From: Methanolobus chelungpuianus
GTDB lineage: Archaea; Halobacteriota; Methanosarcinia; Methanosarcinales; Methanosarcinaceae
Reading direction: 5' to 3'
DNA length: 64,000 nucleotides
Assembly: GCF_024500045.1 (NCBI RefSeq)
Contig: NZ_JTEO01000002.1
Span: 496,001-560,000, forward strand
The position numbers were made by a program, and so were the translations under genes. Below are positions 5,623 through 27,734 of the stretch, piece by piece (within the stretch, counting starts at the first letter, position 1; each line of letters starts with the position of its first letter). The notes beneath the pieces were generated by a model. It was given only the letters and a program-made list of their open reading frames with translations, searched no databases and had not been told where the DNA came from.

Positions 5623-6633
5623 ATGAACATGAAAGAAAGGTTTATCAAAGCATTAAAAGGTGAAGAAGTCGATAAAGTTCCGGTAGTATCTGTAACACAG
5701 ACCGCTATCGTTGAACTCATGGATAAGACCGGTGCTGCATGGCCAGAGGCACACACCGATGCGCAGAAGATGGCCGACCTTGCAATGGCAACATACACTG
5801 AGTGCGGTCTTGAGGGTGTAAGAGCTCCATACGACCTTACAGTTCTCGCAGAGGCAATGGGCTGTACAATCAACATGGGCACAAAGAACAGGCAGCCATC
5901 TGTCACAGACCACCCATATCCAAAGGGTCTTGAAGGCGCTGCAATGCCTGAGAACCTCCTTGCACAGGGCAGGATACCCGTAGTGCTTGAGGCCATGAAG
6001 ATCCTCCGGGAGAAGGCAGGAAACGATTTCCCTGTAATCGCCGGTATGGAAGGCCCAGTTACCCTCGCATCCGATCTTGCAAGTGTCAAGAAGTTCATGA
6101 AATGGTCTATCAAGGACCAGGAATCTTTCCAGCAGATGCTCGACTTTGCATGTGACGCATGCATCCAGTATGCAAACGCTCTTGTAGAGGCAGGCGCAGA
6201 TGTCATCAGTGTACCTGACCCGGTAGCATCCCCGGACCTGCTGGCCCCTGAGACATTTAACACAATCCTCAAGCCAGTACTGCAGAGATTCGCAGATGGT
6301 GTCAATGCACCAATGATTCTCCACATCTGTGGTGACGTTTCCCCTATTCTTGAAGGCATGGCAGACTGCCACTTCGAGTCAATCAGCATTGAAGAAAAGG
6401 TCAAGGATCTCAAGGGAGCAAAGGCAAAGGTTGCCGGCAAAGTAACGATCTGCGGTAACATTTCAAGCCCGTTCACCCTGCTTGCAGGTGACGAGGCAAA
6501 GGTCAAGGCTGACTCCAGGAAGGCTCTTGAAGACGGTATTGATGTACTTGCACCAGGCTGCGGAATTGCACCGGACACAAAGTGCTCCAACCTCAGGGCA
6601 ATGGTTGCAGCAAGGGATGAATACTTCGCATAA
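5623..6633 (+). CDS. mtaA: Methylcobamide:coenzyme M methyltransferase, methanol-specific
   Basis: MtaA transfers the methyl group from methylated MtaC corrinoid protein to coenzyme M, giving methyl-CoM for methanogenesis. The 336-residue protein belongs to the uroporphyrinogen decarboxylase fold. The zinc ligands are visible as H234-x-C236 (LHICGD) and C313 (PGCGIAP). The stretches SVTQTAIVELMDK and MGTKNRQPSV resemble the Methanosarcina MtaA I remember more than MtbA, and MtaB and MtaC are encoded next door. A purine-rich AGAAGG precedes the ATG. It is convergent with mtaB and has its own promoter and terminator. The codons are of the strongly expressed kind. Confidence 0.92.
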   Translation: MNMKERFIKALKGEEVDKVPVVSVTQTAIVELMDKTGAAWPEAHTDAQKMADLAMATYTECGLEGVRAPYDLTVLAEAMGCTINMGTKNRQPSVTDHPYPKGLEGAAMPENLLAQGRIPVVLEAMKILREKAGNDFPVIAGMEGPVTLASDLASVKKFMKWSIKDQESFQQMLDFACDACIQYANALVEAGADVISVPDPVASPDLLAPETFNTILKPVLQRFADGVNAPMILHICGDVSPILEGMADCHFESISIEEKVKDLKGAKAKVAGKVTICGNISSPFTLLAGDEAKVKADSRKALEDGIDVLAPGCGIAPDTKCSNLRAMVAARDEYFA

Positions 6634-7070: not shown

Positions 7071-8459
7071 TTACCACTTGTAGTTGGTTTCTGGCCTGAA
7101 GACCTTGACCTCTGCCTTGTACTTGGCGAGGCTGTCGCTCATGAAGGTGTCCTTCTCGTTGGTCAGTGCGTCGACAGATGCCTTTGCGTCTGCAAGTGCA
7201 TTCTGCTCGAAGCGGGACATGATGAGCTTGCCTTCCTTCTTGGATGCTTCGAGGATCTTGATTGTCTCGACGACTGCGTTCTTTGAACGGAGGTACAGGT
7301 CGTTTCCGTCCTTGACAATTGCCTGGCCTACCTTGAATGCGTTGTCGTATGCAAGGATGTAGCCCTGTGGGTCTCTGTACTTGTCAGAGAGAGCCATCAT
7401 GTCACGGAGCACCTTTGCGTTTCCGGTCTGGATTGCAGTGTTCATGAGGGCTGCGTCCATGTTCAGGGTCTGGGACCAGCACTGTACGCTTGTACCACCG
7501 AATTCACCGTGGTATTCTACGGACTCGTTGGACCACAGGTCACAAACCTGCATCGTCAGGTTACCCATGACATCTGCGTGTGCGCAGGTTGCGGACTTTC
7601 CTTCCTGGGCGATCGGGCATCCGGTGATGGCCTTGACTATGGTGTTCTCATAGCCGCAGTCCTTTCCTGGGCCCTGTGCGCCTGCTTCATATCCTACCAG
7701 TGTCCTTGAACCAGCAATTACTCTTGCAAGGATTGCGAGTGTGTGTGCGAGGTTCTTGTCAAGGAGACCACCGGCGATGAACATTGCAGTGTTTGCCTGG
7801 GCACAGTCTGTGTCACCGGCTGCAATTCTGCCTTTCTTGTCTGCGATCTTCTTGATGTCGGTCCAGATCATTTCCATGTCCATTCCGCCGAGGCAGCCGA
7901 TGGCATAGATCATACCTGGTACATCGTTCCTGAGAACTGCGTAGTCGAGGATTTCCTTACCACCCATTGTCTCGATGGACAGGAAGTCTGCGCCGCCTTC
8001 TGCTACTGCTTCGAAGGACTCCATGAGTTTGTCGTACTTGTCGCCGATCAGTGCGAGCAGGTCACGGTCCTCACGGATGTCACCGGGGGTGTGCCTGAGA
8101 CCGCACTTTATGCCGTACTCTTCGTGGTATTCTTCGAGGATTGTCTTCTGGACGTGAGCGATCTCGCCTCCCCAGGAGGGGTTGTTGGTCATCTGCTCGA
8201 CGTGTTCTGTCTCGAGTGAGACTGCTGGGAAACCGATCTGTACGGCCCTTGCCATAATGTCGGTTGTCAGCTTGCGGTATTCAGAAACGAGTTTCTCCTT
8301 GGAGACACCGGCCTCTGGCCTTGGTGCATAGTTAACTTCTGCTGTAACGTATCCAGCACCGACCTGTAATCCGAGTTCGGCTTTTACCGGGTGGACAGCA
8401 GTTCCGAAAATCATATCGTCAGCATTCTTGTATGCCATTGAAGTGTATCTTTTGACCAT
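7071..8459 (-). CDS. mtaB: Methanol:corrinoid methyltransferase
   Basis: MtaB is the zinc enzyme that activates methanol and methylates the Co(I) corrinoid of MtaC. The 462-residue protein keeps the three zinc ligands known from Methanosarcina barkeri, each shifted by one position: E163 (FLSIETMGG), C219 (GDTDCAQ) and C268 (GKDCGYEN). An open frame begins at a GTG nine bases earlier, but the ATG at 8459 sits 6 to 7 bases after a good AGAGGTGA ribosome binding site and is the likely start. It follows mtaC by 12 bases, and the two are surely one transcript. Confidence 0.96.
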   Translation of the reverse strand: MVKRYTSMAYKNADDMIFGTAVHPVKAELGLQVGAGYVTAEVNYAPRPEAGVSKEKLVSEYRKLTTDIMARAVQIGFPAVSLETEHVEQMTNNPSWGGEIAHVQKTILEEYHEEYGIKCGLRHTPGDIREDRDLLALIGDKYDKLMESFEAVAEGGADFLSIETMGGKEILDYAVLRNDVPGMIYAIGCLGGMDMEMIWTDIKKIADKKGRIAAGDTDCAQANTAMFIAGGLLDKNLAHTLAILARVIAGSRTLVGYEAGAQGPGKDCGYENTIVKAITGCPIAQEGKSATCAHADVMGNLTMQVCDLWSNESVEYHGEFGGTSVQCWSQTLNMDAALMNTAIQTGNAKVLRDMMALSDKYRDPQGYILAYDNAFKVGQAIVKDGNDLYLRSKNAVVETIKILEASKKEGKLIMSRFEQNALADAKASVDALTNEKDTFMSDSLAKYKAEVKVFRPETNYKW

Positions 8460-8471
8460 TTGCTTCACCTC

Positions 8472-9233
8472 TTAGTGCTTGTGGAACATGTCCTTCAGCT
8501 GTGCAAGGCCCTTGCCTGCCAGTATTGCGTTTGCCATCTTTGGTGCGTCTGCTGCTTCCTCGCCATATATACCGAGCTGGTATGATGCGACGAAGTCCTG
8601 GTTGACTGCTCCGCCACCGCACTGGAATGGTATCTTGATGCCTGCTTCGAGGAGTCTGTCGTTGATTTCCTTGAATGCATACATGGTGGTTGTCATGAGT
8701 GCTGTACCGGTGAGCATCATTGGGCTCTCCTTCTTTACAGCTGCAATGACTTCATCTACTGGGACATCACGGCCGAGGTCTACAACTTCGTATCCGGCAG
8801 ATCTGAGAAGAGCTGCTACGATTGTCTTTCCGATGTCGTGGACGTCACCCTCTGCCACGTGGCATACTACTTTGCCCTTTGGCTTTGGTGCTGAGCCTGC
8901 GGATTCCTTACAGAACTCGATACCTTCGAGCATTGCATCTGCAGACATCATGACGTTTGGCAGGAAGACTACACCCTGGTCATATAAGTCAGTTACAATC
9001 TTCATTCCTGGCATGAGTACGTCGTCAATGAGCTTTATGGGGTTTGCTCCCTTCTCGATTGCCTTCTCGAGGCCCTCGATAACGTCGTCCTCTTCACCCT
9101 CAAAGATTGCCTTTGCAATTGATTTTGCAGGCTCGTCTTTCGGGAACATCTCAGCTGCCATCTGATCAGGTGTCTGTGCTTTCTCCTTCTGCACATTGTA
9201 CCTGACTAAAATTTTGGTTGGGTCTATATCCAT
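8472..9233 (-). CDS. mtaC: Methanol-specific corrinoid protein
   Basis: MtaC is the small corrinoid carrier that shuttles methyl groups between MtaB and MtaA. The 253-residue protein has an N-terminal helical cap domain (about 30-115) and a C-terminal Rossmann-like cobalamin-binding domain with D130-x-H132-x-x-G135 (EGDVHDIGK); H132 is the lower axial cobalt ligand. TGTALMTTT and QCGGGAVN belong to the nucleotide-tail pocket. A strong AAGGAGG site precedes the ATG by 8 bases. It is the first gene of mtaCB, with a large gene-free region upstream that probably holds a long leader and control sites. Confidence 0.96.
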   Translation of the reverse strand: MDIDPTKILVRYNVQKEKAQTPDQMAAEMFPKDEPAKSIAKAIFEGEEDDVIEGLEKAIEKGANPIKLIDDVLMPGMKIVTDLYDQGVVFLPNVMMSADAMLEGIEFCKESAGSAPKPKGKVVCHVAEGDVHDIGKTIVAALLRSAGYEVVDLGRDVPVDEVIAAVKKESPMMLTGTALMTTTMYAFKEINDRLLEAGIKIPFQCGGGAVNQDFVASYQLGIYGEEAADAPKMANAILAGKGLAQLKDMFHKH

Positions 9234-10094: not shown

Positions 10095-11201
10095 TCATGA
10101 AGTCTCTTGGTGAGCATGTGAATTGTGCGCGAAACTGATATTCACTGCCCTGAGATTATCCTCAACAGCATCATTCACTATACTGATCAGCCTGTCGCGT
10201 TTGATGTTAGATACGGCTGAGAGTATCTTCAGCTTGCGGGAATGTGCATTCCCGAGGGGGATGAGCTCATATGTGACATCCTTGTCGAATGCTGTCAGAT
10301 TAGCTTTTACTGTATCGGTTTCGGATTCCATGAACAATTTGATGTGGCCCACGAACTCAGGACTGGATTTCGTCACTTCGGCCTTGATGGTTTCGATCAG
10401 GTTCCGGACAACCGATCGGGCATTGTCGGTCGACACATCTCCAATATTGTACTCAGTGGCATAGCTGGTAACTCCTGAAGCATTAATGGAATTCATATCG
10501 TATTCTACAGGCTCGCCGGTTGCCCTGTCCACCATCTGGATTCCGGGGATGGTGGTCTTCAGTTCTGTATCTCTCTTCTCACTGAGTATCTCTTCGGCAC
10601 CTTCTCCAAAGAGGAGCTTCACAAACTCATGCCAGTGCTCATCCTCATATGTGGCAGAAAGCAGAACCACCCTGGCCTTCGGGTTCAACTGCTGGACAGA
10701 TGCTTCGATGATGGGAATGCGTATTTTTTCCACCAGGTCCAGTTTGTTTATCCCCAGCACCTCCGCATCTATTATCTGCCTCATGGCGAAGTGCTTGACT
10801 TCCTTCATAAGCTGCTTGAACCTGCTTCCGTCTATGAGCGTCACCAGCGGCTGAATGCTGACGTCCTTTAGGTCCATAAGGTTGATCTCGTTCCTGATGA
10901 TCTGGGGGAAAGCAATACCTGTCGGCTCTATGAGAAGTATGTCCGGCTTATAGTCCTTCATCAGCAGGCTTATAGTGGTCTTCATATTCACCTTCAGCGA
11001 ACAGCAGATACATCCGCTGGTAAGTTCCGTTGTCTGAAGGCCATATTTGGAGATCACGTCCCCGTCTATACCCACCTCGCCTATCTCATTGACGATAATG
11101 GCAACTTTCTTTCCTGCATTGCTGAAATCCCTTCCAAGCCTCAGAACGGTGGTGGTCTTACCGCTGCCTAAAAAGCCTCCGATCACCAGTATTTTCATCA
11201 T
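10095..11201 (-). CDS. CobW/COG0523-family GTPase, putative metallochaperone
   Basis: The 368-residue protein is a P-loop GTPase of the CobW/HypB/UreG group. It has the P-loop GFLGSGKT (residues 9-16), the family metal-binding C64-x-C66-C67 motif, NKLD (152-155) for guanine recognition, and a His-containing C-terminal tail. Such proteins deliver metals (Zn, Co, Ni, Fe) to target enzymes. It lies 27 bases after the RamA-like activase gene on the same strand, upstream of mtaCB. A role in loading zinc into MtaB/MtaA or in corrinoid supply is an inference. Either of two adjacent ATG codons could be the start. Confidence 0.88.
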   Translation of the reverse strand: MMKILVIGGFLGSGKTTTVLRLGRDFSNAGKKVAIIVNEIGEVGIDGDVISKYGLQTTELTSGCICCSLKVNMKTTISLLMKDYKPDILLIEPTGIAFPQIIRNEINLMDLKDVSIQPLVTLIDGSRFKQLMKEVKHFAMRQIIDAEVLGINKLDLVEKIRIPIIEASVQQLNPKARVVLLSATYEDEHWHEFVKLLFGEGAEEILSEKRDTELKTTIPGIQMVDRATGEPVEYDMNSINASGVTSYATEYNIGDVSTDNARSVVRNLIETIKAEVTKSSPEFVGHIKLFMESETDTVKANLTAFDKDVTYELIPLGNAHSRKLKILSAVSNIKRDRLISIVNDAVEDNLRAVNISFAHNSHAHQETS

Positions 11202-11228
11202 GGGGTCCTGCTCCTGTCCGAAAAAAGA

Positions 11229-12851
11229 TCATGCCGGGATTTCCAGCACTTCAAGGTTCTCCCACTTGAACTTGTCCTTGGGACATGCATTGATGCATCT
11301 CTTGCAGTTGGCGCCGTCACAGAGGTCCGAGCTTATCATGACAACTCCCTCGTCATCGATGCTCAGGGCATCCGTGGGGCATACCTTGACACATTTCTTG
11401 CATTCGGGGCATTCCACTTTCATTGTTAGGAAGGTACCCACCCTTTCAAGTACCTGAAGCCCTTCTTCCCCAAGCACAGGTATGTCCCTTATCACACGCT
11501 TGTCCACGCGGGTTGTGTGCTCGGGCAGGTCGATCTGCGGCAGTCCCTTCTTCTTCAGGAACTTCTTGAGCATCTTAAAGGGCATGCCTTCGGTCCAATA
11601 GGATATCTCTTGGATATATGCATCCTTGAACCCGGGGTCAGTTGCAAACATTATGTGGTTGCTCAGTATCTTCTTTGCGATCTCCTGCAGTTCCCATAGT
11701 CTTTCTTCGGAAAGGAGAATCTCCCTTGCCACGATAAGTGAGGTGTTACCTATCTGGATCACCTCGTCGACGTTAAAGGGCACCATGCCTATCTGATGTG
11801 CCTTGACAGCATCCATGTAGGTACCTGCAGCCCCTGACATGTACGCCTTCTTCACTTCACTGACCTCGATGCCTGCAGCGTTACACAGTGCAAGGTGGCC
11901 GGCACGTATGGCACCGATAGCAAGCCCTGCTTCCTGTACATCGTTCTCGAAGAACTTGACCTTGTCCTGAAGGTAAAGTATGTGGTCGGGTGTGTTGATC
12001 TTCGGAAGCTGTATGATCCCGTTCTTCATTCCGGCATCGAGGATGGCAATGACTCCCGTGCCTGTAATTCCCTTTGCGGTAAGGTCGCTGTCCTCGATCA
12101 CTTCTCCGCTCTTCGGGTCCACGAGCTTTGCCTTGACAGTGTTCATCTCAGCGTCAAGCACGTAGTTGCGCAGGTTGCCGTTCTCGAACTCGGCATCCGC
12201 AATGACGAAGGGGGATGCAAGCTTTCCGTACTTTATCTGCTGCCCTTCCAGTGCAGGACCCGCCGCAGCCGAACCTGTATAGATGGTTCCCTGGTGGATG
12301 AGTGCCATCTCTGCGTTGGTACCATAGTCAGTGGCAATGGCTGTCTCCTGGGTGTCAAGGAAGCCTGATTTGATAATGAGGGCGAGGGCATCTGCACCGA
12401 CCTCATGTCTGATGGCAGGCGGTACCACCAGCTTTGCATTGGGATATACTTCAAGGCCAGTGATCTCAGAACAGTCAATGATGCGTGCGCTCCTGTCTGA
12501 TTCTTTAATGTTGAGCTTCTCTTTCTTCCTCTCTCCTGCATATGCAAGGTCATCTATGGGAATTCCCTGGAATATGGATAACTGTATAGGATTTCCGCAG
12601 ATGGCCATTCTCTGAAGTTCTTCAGGTGCTATTCCCAAAGCCTCGATGACCTTTCTGACCGCATTCACATGGAGGCCGTGGGCAAGATCCAGCCCGTAGG
12701 TGATGGCAAAATCAAGGTGATCCATCACATTTGCTCCCGGAAGCGGATTACGGAGGGTGATCACGGTCTTTTTGATCTCTCCTGAATCCAGGTCGATCTT
12801 CTGTGCTCTTATACCACTGGTTCCTAAGTCGATTGCAACTCCTGTTCTCAT
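11229..12851 (-). CDS. RamA-like corrinoid protein reductive activase
   Basis: The 540-residue protein matches RamA-type activases, which reduce inactive Co(II) corrinoid protein to Co(I) at the cost of ATP. The N-terminal part has an actin-like ATPase signature (VAIDLGTSGIRAQ), the middle a glycine-rich activase region (TDYGTNAEMAL, GSAAAGPALEG, ITGTGVIAIL). The C-terminus carries two ferredoxin-like cysteine sets: C481, C484, C487, C491 and C511, C516, C519, C523. RamA itself serves methylamine proteins. Because this copy sits with mtaCB and no methylamine genes are present, it is more likely the methanol counterpart (MapA-like). That assignment is by context. Confidence 0.9.
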   Translation of the reverse strand: MRTGVAIDLGTSGIRAQKIDLDSGEIKKTVITLRNPLPGANVMDHLDFAITYGLDLAHGLHVNAVRKVIEALGIAPEELQRMAICGNPIQLSIFQGIPIDDLAYAGERKKEKLNIKESDRSARIIDCSEITGLEVYPNAKLVVPPAIRHEVGADALALIIKSGFLDTQETAIATDYGTNAEMALIHQGTIYTGSAAAGPALEGQQIKYGKLASPFVIADAEFENGNLRNYVLDAEMNTVKAKLVDPKSGEVIEDSDLTAKGITGTGVIAILDAGMKNGIIQLPKINTPDHILYLQDKVKFFENDVQEAGLAIGAIRAGHLALCNAAGIEVSEVKKAYMSGAAGTYMDAVKAHQIGMVPFNVDEVIQIGNTSLIVAREILLSEERLWELQEIAKKILSNHIMFATDPGFKDAYIQEISYWTEGMPFKMLKKFLKKKGLPQIDLPEHTTRVDKRVIRDIPVLGEEGLQVLERVGTFLTMKVECPECKKCVKVCPTDALSIDDEGVVMISSDLCDGANCKRCINACPKDKFKWENLEVLEIPA

Positions 12852-13843: not shown

Positions 13844-15841
13844 TTAGTATCCAAGCAGTCTCCCTCCCTGATATACAAGGAAAGCCATTATCCAGGCAAC
13901 TGCAACTCCATAGGCGAGCGCAAATGCGGTCCATTTCCATGAACCTGTCTCCTTTTTAATAACTCCCAGGGTCGCCACACAGGGCATATACAGCAGACTG
14001 AACACCATCAGGCTAAGCGCGCTAAGGGCGCTGATTGAAGGGTCTGCAACAAGGCTTGCTGTCAGAGCCTCAGGATTGTCTCCCACCCCGTACAGCACTC
14101 CCATTGATGCGACAACTATCTCCTTTGCCACTAAACCAAAAACAAGGGCAATTGTAATCCTCCAGTCAAATCCCAGGGGCTCAAGCAGAGGTGCAAACAG
14201 GTGGCCGAGCATGCCTACGTAGCTTTCCTCGCTGCCGTACTCTGTCCCCCACGGGAAGGATGCCAGGGACCATATTATCACAACGCCCAGCAATATGACG
14301 GTTCCTGCCTTCTTGATATACATGGCTCCGTTGTCCCACATGTGCACCACACTCGCTCTCAGGGTGGGCACGCGGTAGGGCGGCATTTCCATGATGAACG
14401 GTGCAGGCCTTCCTTTTATGATGGTTGTCCTGAGCAGCTTTGCCGAGGTGACTGCGATCACTATGCCAAGGATGTACATAAAGAATACAACTGTTCCTGC
14501 CTGGCGCCCGAAGAACGCTCCTGCCAGGAGTATATATATAGGAAGCCTGGCTCCACAGGAGACGAAAGGCACCACCAGGAGGGTGATAAGCCTGTCCTTT
14601 TCATCCTCTATGCTGCGCGTGGCCATGATGGCGGGTACGTTGCATCCAAAACCCATCAGCAGGGGGATGAATGACTTTCCGTGCATGCCTATCTTATACA
14701 TGAGCCTGTCCATGATGAAGGCTGCCCTGGCAAGATACCCGCTGCCCTCAAGCAGGGACAGCAGGAAGAACAGGATGAATATGTTAGGGACGAAGGTCAG
14801 GACGGCTCCCACGCCTCCGATTATGCCGTCCCCGAGCAGGGATGCCAGCCACCCGGGCTCCAGGCCGGAGCTTACATTTATGGCCAGCCACACAAATGCC
14901 CGCTCGATCATATCTGTAAAGGGTGTGGCGAATGCGAAAGTGAGCTCAAAGGCTCCCCACATAAGAGCAAGGAATATGGGTATCCCCAAGTACTTGTTTG
15001 TCAGGACCCTGTCTATCATATCCGACTTTGTCAACCTGACATTGCACCGGGTGCATATCTGTGGGAAAATAGCGTTGATAGCGACATATCTCTTGTCTGC
15101 GATCTCTGCCTCGTACTCCTCCTGGTCGATGGAAGCAAGCAGTTCGCTTATTGCTCCGGCTGCGGTACTCTTCTCTATCTTTGCCCTGACATTGCTGTCG
15201 CCTTCAAGCAGCCTGATGCTCATCCAGCGCATGGGGTACTTCTTAGTAAGTTCAGGATCAGTTAGCAGGATCTTCTCAATTTCAAGGACTTTGCTCTCTA
15301 TAAGGTCGCCGTAGCCTATCTCACGCCCGTGATACTTCTCATCGTGCTTCTGTTCGATTACCCTGTCGAGAAGTTCGTTGATGCCTACGTCCTTACTTGC
15401 CACGGTCTGTACAACAGGTGCGGCAAGGATCTCCTGCATTTTATTGATGTATAGCTTGTCCCCCCTTTCCAGGGCGAGGTCGCACATGTTAAGGGCGATG
15501 ATCATCTCGGTCTCAAGTTCCATCAGCTGTGTCGTAAGATAGAGGTTCCTTTCAAGATTTGAGGCATCCACTATCTGGATCACTATATCCGGCTTTTCCT
15601 CTATGATATAGTCCCTTGCGACGATCTCATCCATGGAGTATGCCGTAAGGCTGTAAGTGCCCGGAAGGTCGGTGACCTCTATCTCGTATCCCCTGTAGGT
15701 CCTTACACCTGTCTTTTTCTCAACAGTGACCCCGGGCCAGTTACCCACATGCTGCCGGGAGCCAGTTATTGCATTGAACAATGTGGTCTTACCTACATTT
15801 GGATTGCCGGCAAGGGCAACTCTGATTTTCCTGTTTTCCAT
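13844..15841 (-). CDS. feoB: Ferrous iron transport protein B
   Basis: FeoB imports Fe(II). The 665-residue protein has an N-terminal G domain with GNPNVGKTT (12-20), DLPGTYSL and NMCD, a helical spacer, then a polytopic membrane part with paired gate motifs (for example GFGCNVPAIMATR and MPCVATLGVI). The open frame starts at 15904, but homology begins at MENRKIRVALAGN and a GAGGACTT site precedes the ATG at 15841. The following gene starts 14 bases after the stop. It is probably cotranscribed with feoA and repressed by the DtxR-family protein encoded upstream. Confidence 0.95.
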   Translation of the reverse strand: MENRKIRVALAGNPNVGKTTLFNAITGSRQHVGNWPGVTVEKKTGVRTYRGYEIEVTDLPGTYSLTAYSMDEIVARDYIIEEKPDIVIQIVDASNLERNLYLTTQLMELETEMIIALNMCDLALERGDKLYINKMQEILAAPVVQTVASKDVGINELLDRVIEQKHDEKYHGREIGYGDLIESKVLEIEKILLTDPELTKKYPMRWMSIRLLEGDSNVRAKIEKSTAAGAISELLASIDQEEYEAEIADKRYVAINAIFPQICTRCNVRLTKSDMIDRVLTNKYLGIPIFLALMWGAFELTFAFATPFTDMIERAFVWLAINVSSGLEPGWLASLLGDGIIGGVGAVLTFVPNIFILFFLLSLLEGSGYLARAAFIMDRLMYKIGMHGKSFIPLLMGFGCNVPAIMATRSIEDEKDRLITLLVVPFVSCGARLPIYILLAGAFFGRQAGTVVFFMYILGIVIAVTSAKLLRTTIIKGRPAPFIMEMPPYRVPTLRASVVHMWDNGAMYIKKAGTVILLGVVIIWSLASFPWGTEYGSEESYVGMLGHLFAPLLEPLGFDWRITIALVFGLVAKEIVVASMGVLYGVGDNPEALTASLVADPSISALSALSLMVFSLLYMPCVATLGVIKKETGSWKWTAFALAYGVAVAWIMAFLVYQGGRLLGY

Positions 15842-15909
15842 AAGTCCTCGCTCATTGCTATGATCCGGGCCTGCAGATATTATTTGTGATTTCTGGCGGA
15901 CCATTGTCC

Positions 15910-16146
15910 CTACTCGATCATCTGGACGAATATCTGGCTTGCCTCTTCCTTCCTGATCGAAAGATGATATCCCTTTATCTGGAACTCAATGGGGTCTCCC
16001 AGGGGAGCTTTTCTTACCAGTTCCACTTCCGAGCCGGCGACCATCCCCATATCGAACAGCTTTCTCCTGGCAGGACCTTTTACACGCACTTTCGTAATCC
16101 TTGCCAGGTCACCCGGTTTAAGTGTATCAAGCGTGATCTCGGTCAT
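15910..16146 (-). CDS. feoA: FeoA domain protein
   Basis: This 78-residue SH3-like protein is the small cytoplasmic partner of FeoB. It shows the FeoA pattern: LDTLKPGDLARITKV, then ARRKLFDMGMVAGSEVELVR and a closing strand with YHLSIRKEEA. The frame is open to 16212, but homology and a GAGGGAA site favour the ATG at 16146. It lies 68 bases before feoB. A TATA-like TATATATTAAAAG just upstream (about 16195-16207) and a palindrome next to it are the likely promoter and operator. Confidence 0.92.
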   Translation of the reverse strand: MTEITLDTLKPGDLARITKVRVKGPARRKLFDMGMVAGSEVELVRKAPLGDPIEFQIKGYHLSIRKEEASQIFVQMIE

Positions 16147-16194
16147 TTTAAGCAGTTCCCTCTTACTATGCGTTTCTCTGAGTAGCGTAATCAG

Positions 16195-16230
16195 ACTTTT
16201 AATATATAGCAATATCGCGATAGCTAATAT
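16195..16230 (-). promoter_or_regulatory. feo promoter with candidate DtxR-family operator
   Basis: On the minus strand ATTAGCTATCGCGATATTG is followed directly by a TATA-like TATATATTAAAAG. The core TATCGCGATA (16213-16222) is a perfect palindrome. The 9-mer ATTAGCTAT also occurs upstream of the dtxR-family gene. Together they look like an iron-responsive operator, though no protein binding can be read from sequence. Confidence 0.5.
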
Positions 16231-16307
16231 GTTTCTGCATGCAAAACAATCTCAACGATTATCCCGTATACTGTCCTCAGCTGCTGTTACTACCTGCCCC
16301 TGCTTCA

Positions 16308-16331
16308 TTATCGTAATGTATTTCACGATAA
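16308..16331 (-). terminator. Inverted repeat just after the dtxR-family gene
   Basis: TTATCGT and ACGATAA pair across a 10-base loop, starting 8 bases after the stop codon. It may be a terminator. Its arms contain TATCG/CGATA, the same half-sites as the palindrome before feoA, so it could also be a second operator. No T-run follows. Confidence 0.4.
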
Positions 16332-16339
16332 CAGTTACT

Positions 16340-16819
16340 TTACTTTTTCTTGTGGATAGGGCAATTCTCCTTAGGAGACGGCTTGCAGTCGATGTATTCT
16401 CCTGTAGTATAAAAATGCCTGAAATGGTCCAGCCAGTAGGGCCACTCACTTCTCATATCGATGAATTCAACAAATTTTGTCAGGATCTCAAAGGTTTCGG
16501 GTGCAAGCACGTGTTCTATCTTGCATGCGTCAAGGTTGGCGTTCTCCTCATCCAGTCCCAGCAACAGAAGAAAATCCCTGATGACCCCGTGCTTTTCCAT
16601 GGTGCACTTGGCAATCCTCTCCCCCTCTTCGGTAAGTGTCACGCCGCCGTATTTCTCATAGTTGATGTATCCTAGCTTGGTAAGCTTCTTGAACATCCCG
16701 GTAACGCTCGGGGAACTGAGGTCAAGCTCCCGGGAGACATCCTTTACCTGGGCATAGCCTTTTCTCTCCACAATTTTCTCGATGGCTTTCAGGTAATCTT
16801 CCGTTCTTTCAGTCGTCAT
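16340..16819 (-). CDS. DtxR/MntR-family iron-dependent repressor
   Basis: The 159-residue protein has an N-terminal winged helix (VSRELDLSSPSVTGMFKKL, then LGYINYEKYGGVTLTEEGERIA) and a metal-binding dimerisation region with the family spacing of Glu, His and Cys (IEHVLAPET). The end (CKPSPKENCPIHKKK) lacks an SH3-like domain, as in MntR-length members. Divalent metal, presumably Fe(II), would make it bind operators before feoA and its own gene. It is directly upstream of feoA on the same strand. A manganese sensor cannot be excluded, but the feo context favours iron. Confidence 0.9.
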   Translation of the reverse strand: MTTERTEDYLKAIEKIVERKGYAQVKDVSRELDLSSPSVTGMFKKLTKLGYINYEKYGGVTLTEEGERIAKCTMEKHGVIRDFLLLLGLDEENANLDACKIEHVLAPETFEILTKFVEFIDMRSEWPYWLDHFRHFYTTGEYIDCKPSPKENCPIHKKK

Positions 16820-27662: not shown

Positions 27663-27734
27663 AGCCCCCGGGGGGATTTGAACCCCCGACCTGCTGATTA
27701 CGAATCAGCCGCTATACCGCTAAGCCACAGAGGC
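27663..27734 (-). tRNA. tRNA-Thr (anticodon CGT)
   Basis: On the minus strand a full cloverleaf can be drawn. Acceptor GCCTCTG pairs with CGGGGGC with two G-U pairs, the anticodon stem-loop is GCTGA-TTCGTAA-TCAGC, and the T arm is GGGGG-TTCAAAT-CCCCC. Loop bases 34-36 are CGT, reading ACG threonine codons. The discriminator base is U. CCA is not encoded. No intron. Confidence 0.93.

Follow-up and report, generated by a model that had tools for sequence, protein, structure and literature searches.

A COG0523-family GTPase gene linked to methanol methyltransferase genes in Methanosarcinaceae: a candidate zinc chaperone for MtaB

The stretch of DNA analysed here (the window) comprises 64,000 nucleotides of Methanolobus chelungpuianus (contig NZ_JTEO01000002.1, positions 496,001 to 560,000), from a genome of 2.6 Mb in 71 contigs, and carries genes for a COG0523/G3E-family GTPase and a RamA-family activase upstream of the methanol methyltransferase genes mtaC and mtaB (Table 1). 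A sequence-only reading of the window had named the two as a CobW-family GTPase and a RamA-like protein, encoded 27 bases apart, and for both open reading frames the profile scores lie above the cut-offs. In the domain-profile scan, PF02492 (cobW) covers residues 4-179 of the GTPase at 131.7 bits (cut-off 20.7). The neighbouring protein is a full member of the TIGR04270 subfamily (Rama_corrin_act; 799.9 bits, cut-off 500), and its C-terminal part matches RACo_C_ter (217.2 bits) and Fer4_7 (30.4 bits, cut-off 27). Exactly 27 bases (11202-11228) separate the RamA stop codon from the GTPase ATG, the two genes probably share one transcript, and the pair stands 861 bases upstream of mtaC. RamA is predicted to reduce its cognate corrinoid protein at the expense of ATP, and the GTPase, from its family and motif, is predicted to bind metal and hydrolyse GTP. 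Across the Methanosarcinaceae the presence of the GTPase gene goes with that of mtaB, and we favour, with a probability of roughly 0.6, the interpretation that the protein is a GTP-gated COG0523 metallochaperone or insertase dedicated to the methanol system, which would bring zinc to MtaB and perhaps to MtaA.

Table 1. Features of the locus and a candidate operator at related loci. Coordinates are window positions; L, G and g numbers here and in the text are our handles for loci, genomes and genera.
Feature	Location	Strand	Basis or remarks
COG0523/G3E-family GTPase, methanol-linked clade	10095..11201	-	368 amino acids; PF02492; tree; structure model
P-loop GGFLGSGKT, GTPase residues 8-16	11154..11180	-	translation and alignment
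CxCC metal motif CICC, GTPase residues 64-67	11001..11012	-	translation and alignment
GTPase C-terminal ferredoxin-like domain, YjiA-like, with H286 in GHIK motif	10119..10496	-	domain model, structure matches
RamA-family corrinoid-protein reductive activase	11229..12851	-	540 amino acids; ASKHA domain and C-terminal dicluster ferredoxin-like segment
mtaC, methanol corrinoid protein	8472..9233	-	NF040655, 451.7 bits, cut-off 420
mtaB, methanol:corrinoid methyltransferase	7071..8468	-	NF040651, 794.1 bits, cut-off 720; 2i2x match, 754 bits
mtaA, methylcobamide:coenzyme M methyltransferase	5623..6633	+	NF040654, 517 bits, cut-off 400
Palindrome CTATCTAAAGATAG, candidate operator	L203, L128/L223, L111/L194		about 58 bases before tandem COG0523

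The GTPase is an ordinary member of a known family. All nine P-loop residues are invariant in an 18-sequence alignment. The cysteines of the metal motif (Cys64, Cys66 and Cys67, within GCICC at residues 63-67) are conserved in 99% of 89 methanol-clade sequences, in which His286 and Lys288 of the GHIK motif stand at 100% and His364 at 93%. Several homologues end in His-rich tails; the tail of the window protein has two histidines. AlphaFold2 gives a full-length model of moderate confidence (predicted local distance difference test score, pLDDT, 73; predicted template modelling score, pTM, 0.57), and residues 41-70, the CxCC motif included, are of low confidence. The best Foldseek matches of this model are entries of YjiA, the COG0523 protein of E. 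coli (PDB 1nij, 4ixm and 4ixn), at an E-value of 1.6e-12 but with a root-mean-square deviation (rmsd) of 21 over both domains. YjiA shares the two-domain architecture and the CxCC motif, whereas identity over the whole chain is about 16% and the domains are placed differently in the window model. When modelled alone, the C-terminal domain (pLDDT 89, pTM 0.83) adopts a ferredoxin-like fold whose top three Foldseek matches are all YjiA (E 4e-4 to 8e-4, TM 0.47-0.48), and it aligns with YjiA residues 216-318 at Z 8.1-8.3 and rmsd 3.2-3.3 over 101 residues; two other ferredoxin-like chains score higher (Z 9.2 and 8.4). No CobW_C sequence match was among those listed for the GTPase in the domain-profile scan. 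Since both the whole model and the C-terminal domain give YjiA-like matches, the predicted structure fits an ordinary COG0523 architecture.

The association of COG0523 genes with methanol genes is real and conserved, and it is not new, having been in print since 2009. In the portion of Haas et al. (PMC2770081) available to us, most archaeal COG0523 proteins fall in subfamily 13 and are co-localized with corrinoid-dependent methyltransferases, the genes lying with mtaA, mtaB, mtaC and ramM in Methanosarcina barkeri, M. acetivorans, M. mazei and Methanococcus maripaludis S2, and the same grouping is recorded for Clostridium botulinum and Desulfitobacterium hafniense. The same pages point out that MtaA and MtaB depend on zinc, infer a zinc link to COG0523, describe zinc linkage as frequent among COG0523 proteins, cite MA4382 in methanol-grown cells and predict a zinc-repressor site before MA4381. 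The sequence-only reading had held that a dedicated CxCC GTPase in this pathway was, to its knowledge, not described, which this earlier account of the clustering contradicts. The window gene is probably the Methanolobus copy of this subfamily (MA4382, MA4381 and MM1072 in PMC2770081), in which a GTPase likewise stands beside ramM and mtaA/B/C in methylotrophic methanogens and zinc was proposed, matched by gene context rather than by placement in the published tree. Our literature search, with most subscription papers outside its reach, found no published functional test of these archaeal COG0523 genes. What is new here is the quantification of co-occurrence and linkage across the Methanosarcinaceae; the contrast with methylamine loci described below is a feature of the present analysis that we did not see in the available part of PMC2770081.

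We surveyed 111 Methanosarcinaceae genomes, tallied by hand, in which shared history among related species means that the counts are not independent events. A COG0523 homologue at E <= 1e-30 was found in 99 of them, RamA in 104 and MtaB in 94. The linked copy was scored as present in 90 genomes on a best match of E <= 1e-80 and in three more (G027, G028 and G088) on a weaker or fragmentary match that stood behind RamA. The resulting 93 genomes include seven g6 and g8 genes that the tree places in a neighbouring clade, G071 in another clade, and G098, whose stretch shows a fused Mts-type gene only and no mtaCB. On this scoring, 90 of the 94 mtaB-positive genomes carry the linked copy versus three of the 17 mtaB-negative ones. 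Among those three carriers, the contig of G051 stops just past the gene, that of G030 breaks off within a partial MtaB, and the completeness of G028 is 65%. G033, G052 and G097, which are at least 98% complete and have no MtaB, have no linked copy, yet each has at least one RamA.

This pattern bears on the possibility that the GTPase is a general zinc-homeostasis protein with many clients, encoded at this locus by chance. COG0523 proteins are often zinc-linked (PMC2770081, as far as seen), and the genome of the window has a paralogue that is not near mta, as do many of the 17 genomes mapped below. However, the co-occurrence with mtaB and the conserved cluster position point to a dedicated client, and the separate paralogue could itself fill the general role, which makes such a general role of the window protein unlikely. 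That paralogue (L036:8983-10029, at G000:C2:292497) adjoins a PAS-type sensor histidine kinase gene and an acetyltransferase-like gene, and with it the genome has two full-size COG0523 genes in total.

The zinc chaperones ZigA, ZagA and ZNG1 supply zinc to particular clients, methionine aminopeptidase in the case of ZNG1. The window GTPase belongs to the same family, but it is encoded in a methyltransferase cluster and remains under the equivalog cut-off of the curated ZigA model NF038288 (78.2 bits versus 600).

Beyond the family, an even draw of 392 genomes from the phylum gave a homologue at E <= 1e-40 in 67, made up of 60 Methanosarcinaceae and seven members of one other family; among the misses listed, one is a Methanosarcinaceae genome, with 305 further misses not listed individually. 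The seven homologues of the other family (f8: G166, G192, G223, G270, G274, G283 and G321) have E-values of 9e-42 to 2e-48. When genome contigs were scanned for MtaB, the best 80 of 283 matches represented 75 distinct loci, all archaeal by title. A scan of plasmids found no MtaB, and its COG0523 matches were all below 60% identity.

To see which partner the GTPase gene follows, we mapped 17 near-complete genomes of seven genera and counted COG0523 genes within 20 kilobases (kb). Seven of the 55 PF02492 matches were excluded (below 100 bits, in frames of about 200-230 amino acids, probably HypB- or UreG-like), as were three of the 49 MtmB matches (fragments in G043). The control is crude, assuming uniform gene placement and, for G000 and G076, using one contig only. 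In all 17 genomes at least one mtaB has a COG0523 gene inside this distance. Of the mtaB copies, 25 of 39 have such a neighbour, where random placement gives 1.4; the corresponding numbers are 17 of 51 for RamA (1.9 at random) and, among the matches listed, six of 14 for Mts-type fused corrinoid/UroD genes (0.6 at random). On the methylamine side, the count is 0 of 23 for mttB (0.8 at random) and two of 46 for mtmB (1.7 at random), both in Methanococcoides with the COG0523 gene between mta and mtm genes. Sorting the RamA genes by their neighbours gives the same picture: of the 17 near an mtaB, 16 meet a COG0523 gene inside 20 kb and the last at about 21 kb, while of the 16 near mtmB or mttB and not mtaB, none has one; among the remaining 18, one does, beside an Mts-type gene. 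This contrast between methanol and methylamine genes is independent of the random model. The association suspected by the sequence-only reading thus extends well beyond one organism, and the comparative evidence supports its link of the GTPase to methanol use.

The methanol and Mts systems share a zinc-dependent methyl-transferring domain, and the methylamine methyltransferases use pyrrolysine. COG0523 is absent or nearly so around methylamine-side RamA, mttB and mtmB, which shows that the GTPase does not assist RamA, or corrinoid proteins, in general; judged from gene position, the partner that it follows is the zinc methyltransferase, as opposed to RamA or to corrinoid systems at large.

The arrangement with RamA is nevertheless striking enough to raise another explanation, in which the GTPase works with RamA on the corrinoid side, as a MeaB-like G protein gating corrinoid loading or repair in MtaC. 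RamA is the upstream neighbour, on the same strand and at most 3.5 kb away, in the window and in 78 of 92 other loci with a linked gene (a count that leaves out G015, G033 and G100, which have no linked copy), and the gap to COG0523 is at most 150 bases in 63 of those 78; in four Methanosarcina loci a second COG0523 gene sits between RamA and the linked gene. The g6 and g8 loci keep the RamA-COG0523 pair without mtaCB in the stretch read. The GTPase domain also resembles IcmF, MMAA and MeaB, whose alignments at Z 13-15 exceed that of YjiA (12.9). However, UreG and HypB chains score higher in the same list, occupying the top four places at Z 16.3-17.4 over 177-186 residues (another HypB reaches 14.2), a ranking that covers the families among the matches listed and does not thereby exclude an unlisted one. 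The GTPase also carries the CxCC metal site, which MeaB is not known to have. In Methanococcoides (g7) the gene is near mtaCB in all 11 loci and not behind RamA, which is found in the same stretch in seven of them; these 11, all those read for the genus, together with two Methanosalsum loci and G098 make up the 14 of the 92 without an upstream RamA. The window RamA, a full TIGR04270 member like the methanol-linked RamM, is set apart from the 16 methylamine-side RamA genes, which, like the mttB loci, manage without a COG0523 neighbour. The pairing noted by the sequence-only reading is therefore genuine but looks mostly positional, with the g6 and g8 loci counting the other way, and we regard a corrinoid-side role as unlikely, if the least unlikely of the alternatives.

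A tree of 139 sequences places the window gene in a group of 89 with the Methanohalophilus, Methanococcoides and Methanosarcina genes and one from Methanosalsum (node support 0.6). Just outside it lie the seven RamA-linked g6 and g8 genes and a clade of ten formed by Methanolobus second copies and G071; Mts-linked and free-standing COG0523 paralogues branch farther out. The RamA-family gene L227:8776-10404 (G082) is 67% identical to the window RamA and has the top TIGR04270 score among those obtained (918.6 bits), and no mta or COG0523 match was found across the 19.5 kb read around it.

Two other metals have to be considered. The GTPase could be a cobalt chaperone for corrinoid synthesis, the true CobW function in aerobic B12 synthesis, as the family name and a weak match to the curated CobW model TIGR02475 would have it; CobW belongs to the same superfamily and carries the same motif, and paralogues adjoin CbiX/CfbA-type chelatase genes in the two Methanolobus genomes tested. 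That match amounts to 78.5 bits against an equivalog cut-off of 332.1, the gene context is a different one, and there is no link to the methylamine corrinoid systems, which need the same cofactor. CobW serves the CobNST chelatase (PMC7689651, seen in part), at which, as cobN, no search was aimed. Taken together, these points make cobalt supply improbable. Alternatively, iron might be passed to the [4Fe-4S] clusters of RamA by a GTPase fed from an adjoining FeoAB system. FeoB does precede the pair in those Methanolobus and g11 loci whose sequence extends to it, but no FeoB match was found in the homologous clusters of the other genera read, and RamA on the methylamine side has no COG0523 within 20 kb; we consider this the least probable of all. 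Of the roles that the sequence-only reading had floated, delivery of zinc to MtaB or MtaA thus gains comparative support, while cobalt supply for making corrinoids, or a part in loading them, fares less well.

Upstream regions were compared for signs of zinc-responsive control. In three of the five Methanosarcina genomes with a tandem COG0523 gene, the perfect palindrome CTATCTAAAGATAG precedes that gene by about 58 bases; it was not found before the tandem gene of G074 and G080. The znuA loci share it weakly, with three mismatches at best, and none of these genomes has both sites, tandem COG0523 and znuA, at one mismatch or fewer. The pattern used for scanning was built from the palindromes before tandem COG0523 genes and near znuA and checked against shuffles, and it may not be the repressor's true site. 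A direct comparison of COG0523 and znuA upstream regions in Methanolobus gave nothing convincing. The Methanosarcina palindrome agrees with, but does not establish, the zinc-repressor site predicted by Haas et al. (PMC2770081).

MtaB and MtaA are zinc enzymes. For MtaB we take the ligands in 2i2x to be Glu164, Cys220 and Cys269, which map to E166, C222 and C271 of the window protein, and for MtaA presumably H234, C236 and C313. The E/C/C set is invariant in 163 of 163 MtaB sequences and the H/C/C set in 98 of 98 MtaA sequences, where some genes are counted twice and the MtaA set includes related paralogues. The zinc sites are thus intact, an invariance that is silent on whether the GTPase serves them.

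We favour zinc delivery to MtaB because of the joint presence with mtaB, the linkage contrast between methanol and methylamine genes, the invariant zinc ligands of MtaB and MtaA, the conserved CxCC and H286, the His-rich tails of several homologues, the YjiA-like architecture and the same link drawn in PMC2770081. On these comparisons, supply of zinc, or of another metal, to the methanol methyltransferase seems more likely than help to RamA, corrinoid loading or cobalt supply. In the proposed mechanism, Zn(II) would be bound at the CxCC site in the GTP state, the C-terminal domain would dock on apo-MtaB and possibly apo-MtaA, and GTP hydrolysis would hand the zinc to MtaB. RamA would separately reduce Co(II) in MtaC, such that RamA and the GTPase together could serve as a maturation kit for the methanol enzymes.

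Several points weigh against zinc delivery. The metal, the client and the GTP-driven handover are all drawn from comparison, and linkage within one family is phylogenetically non-independent. The linked copy is missing from the mtaB-positive genomes G015, G047, G090 and G100 (76, 70, 92 and 60% complete), 14 of the 39 mapped mtaB copies lack a COG0523 neighbour at the 20 kb range, and in the g6 and g8 loci the pair persists apart from mtaCB. A search for a zinc-repressor-like site in front of the pair in the window gave none; the best pattern match in 300 bases has six mismatches and is equalled in 176 of 200 shuffles. Finally, the methylamine side of the map consists of mttB, mtmB and RamA; MtbA, the zinc enzyme of methylamine use, lies outside it, so that the contrast does not cover zinc methyltransferases in general.

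A more elaborate arrangement can be imagined, in which the GTPase and RamM form one methanol-specific device, with GTP coupling the zinc loading of MtaB to the corrinoid activation of MtaC. Only a zinc-filled MtaB-MtaC would then be switched on, and duplicated, zinc-responsive copies would sustain methanol use when zinc is scarce. We hold this to be doubtful, less likely than a role in general zinc homeostasis and more likely than cobalt supply. If zinc delivery itself is correct, methanogenesis from methanol would have a metal-supply step of its own, one that could be limiting in zinc-poor settings, and MtaB would be, to our knowledge, the first client from the archaea for any COG0523 protein. 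The presence and absence pattern makes the proposal directly testable in the genetically tractable Methanosarcina.

Other COG0523 genes of the family have varied surroundings. The pairs next to chelatase genes in Methanolobus are tandem (L068:6673-10278 and L041:8252-11237), and similar tandem pairs are present in other Methanolobus loci. Paralogues lie next to Mts-type fused corrinoid/UroD genes (L045:11711-18175, L065, L066; G074), with no RamA in the stretch read at L065 and L066. Both L045 and L066 contain Cpn60-like chaperonin genes, and the COG0523 gene of L065 adjoins one for a type III RuBisCO. A methionine-synthase-like gene (PRK06052), presumably for a zinc enzyme, diverges from a Methanococcoides COG0523 gene (L067:8885-11157) and was considered as a partner, which we rejected on finding no relative in the other loci compared. 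In the window itself, FeoB, a FeoA-like open reading frame (15910-16212) and an MntR/DtxR-like regulator are encoded directly upstream of the RamA-COG0523 pair (13844-16819, minus strand), and a transfer RNA gene (27663-27734, minus strand) is the sole Rfam match at the gathering threshold.

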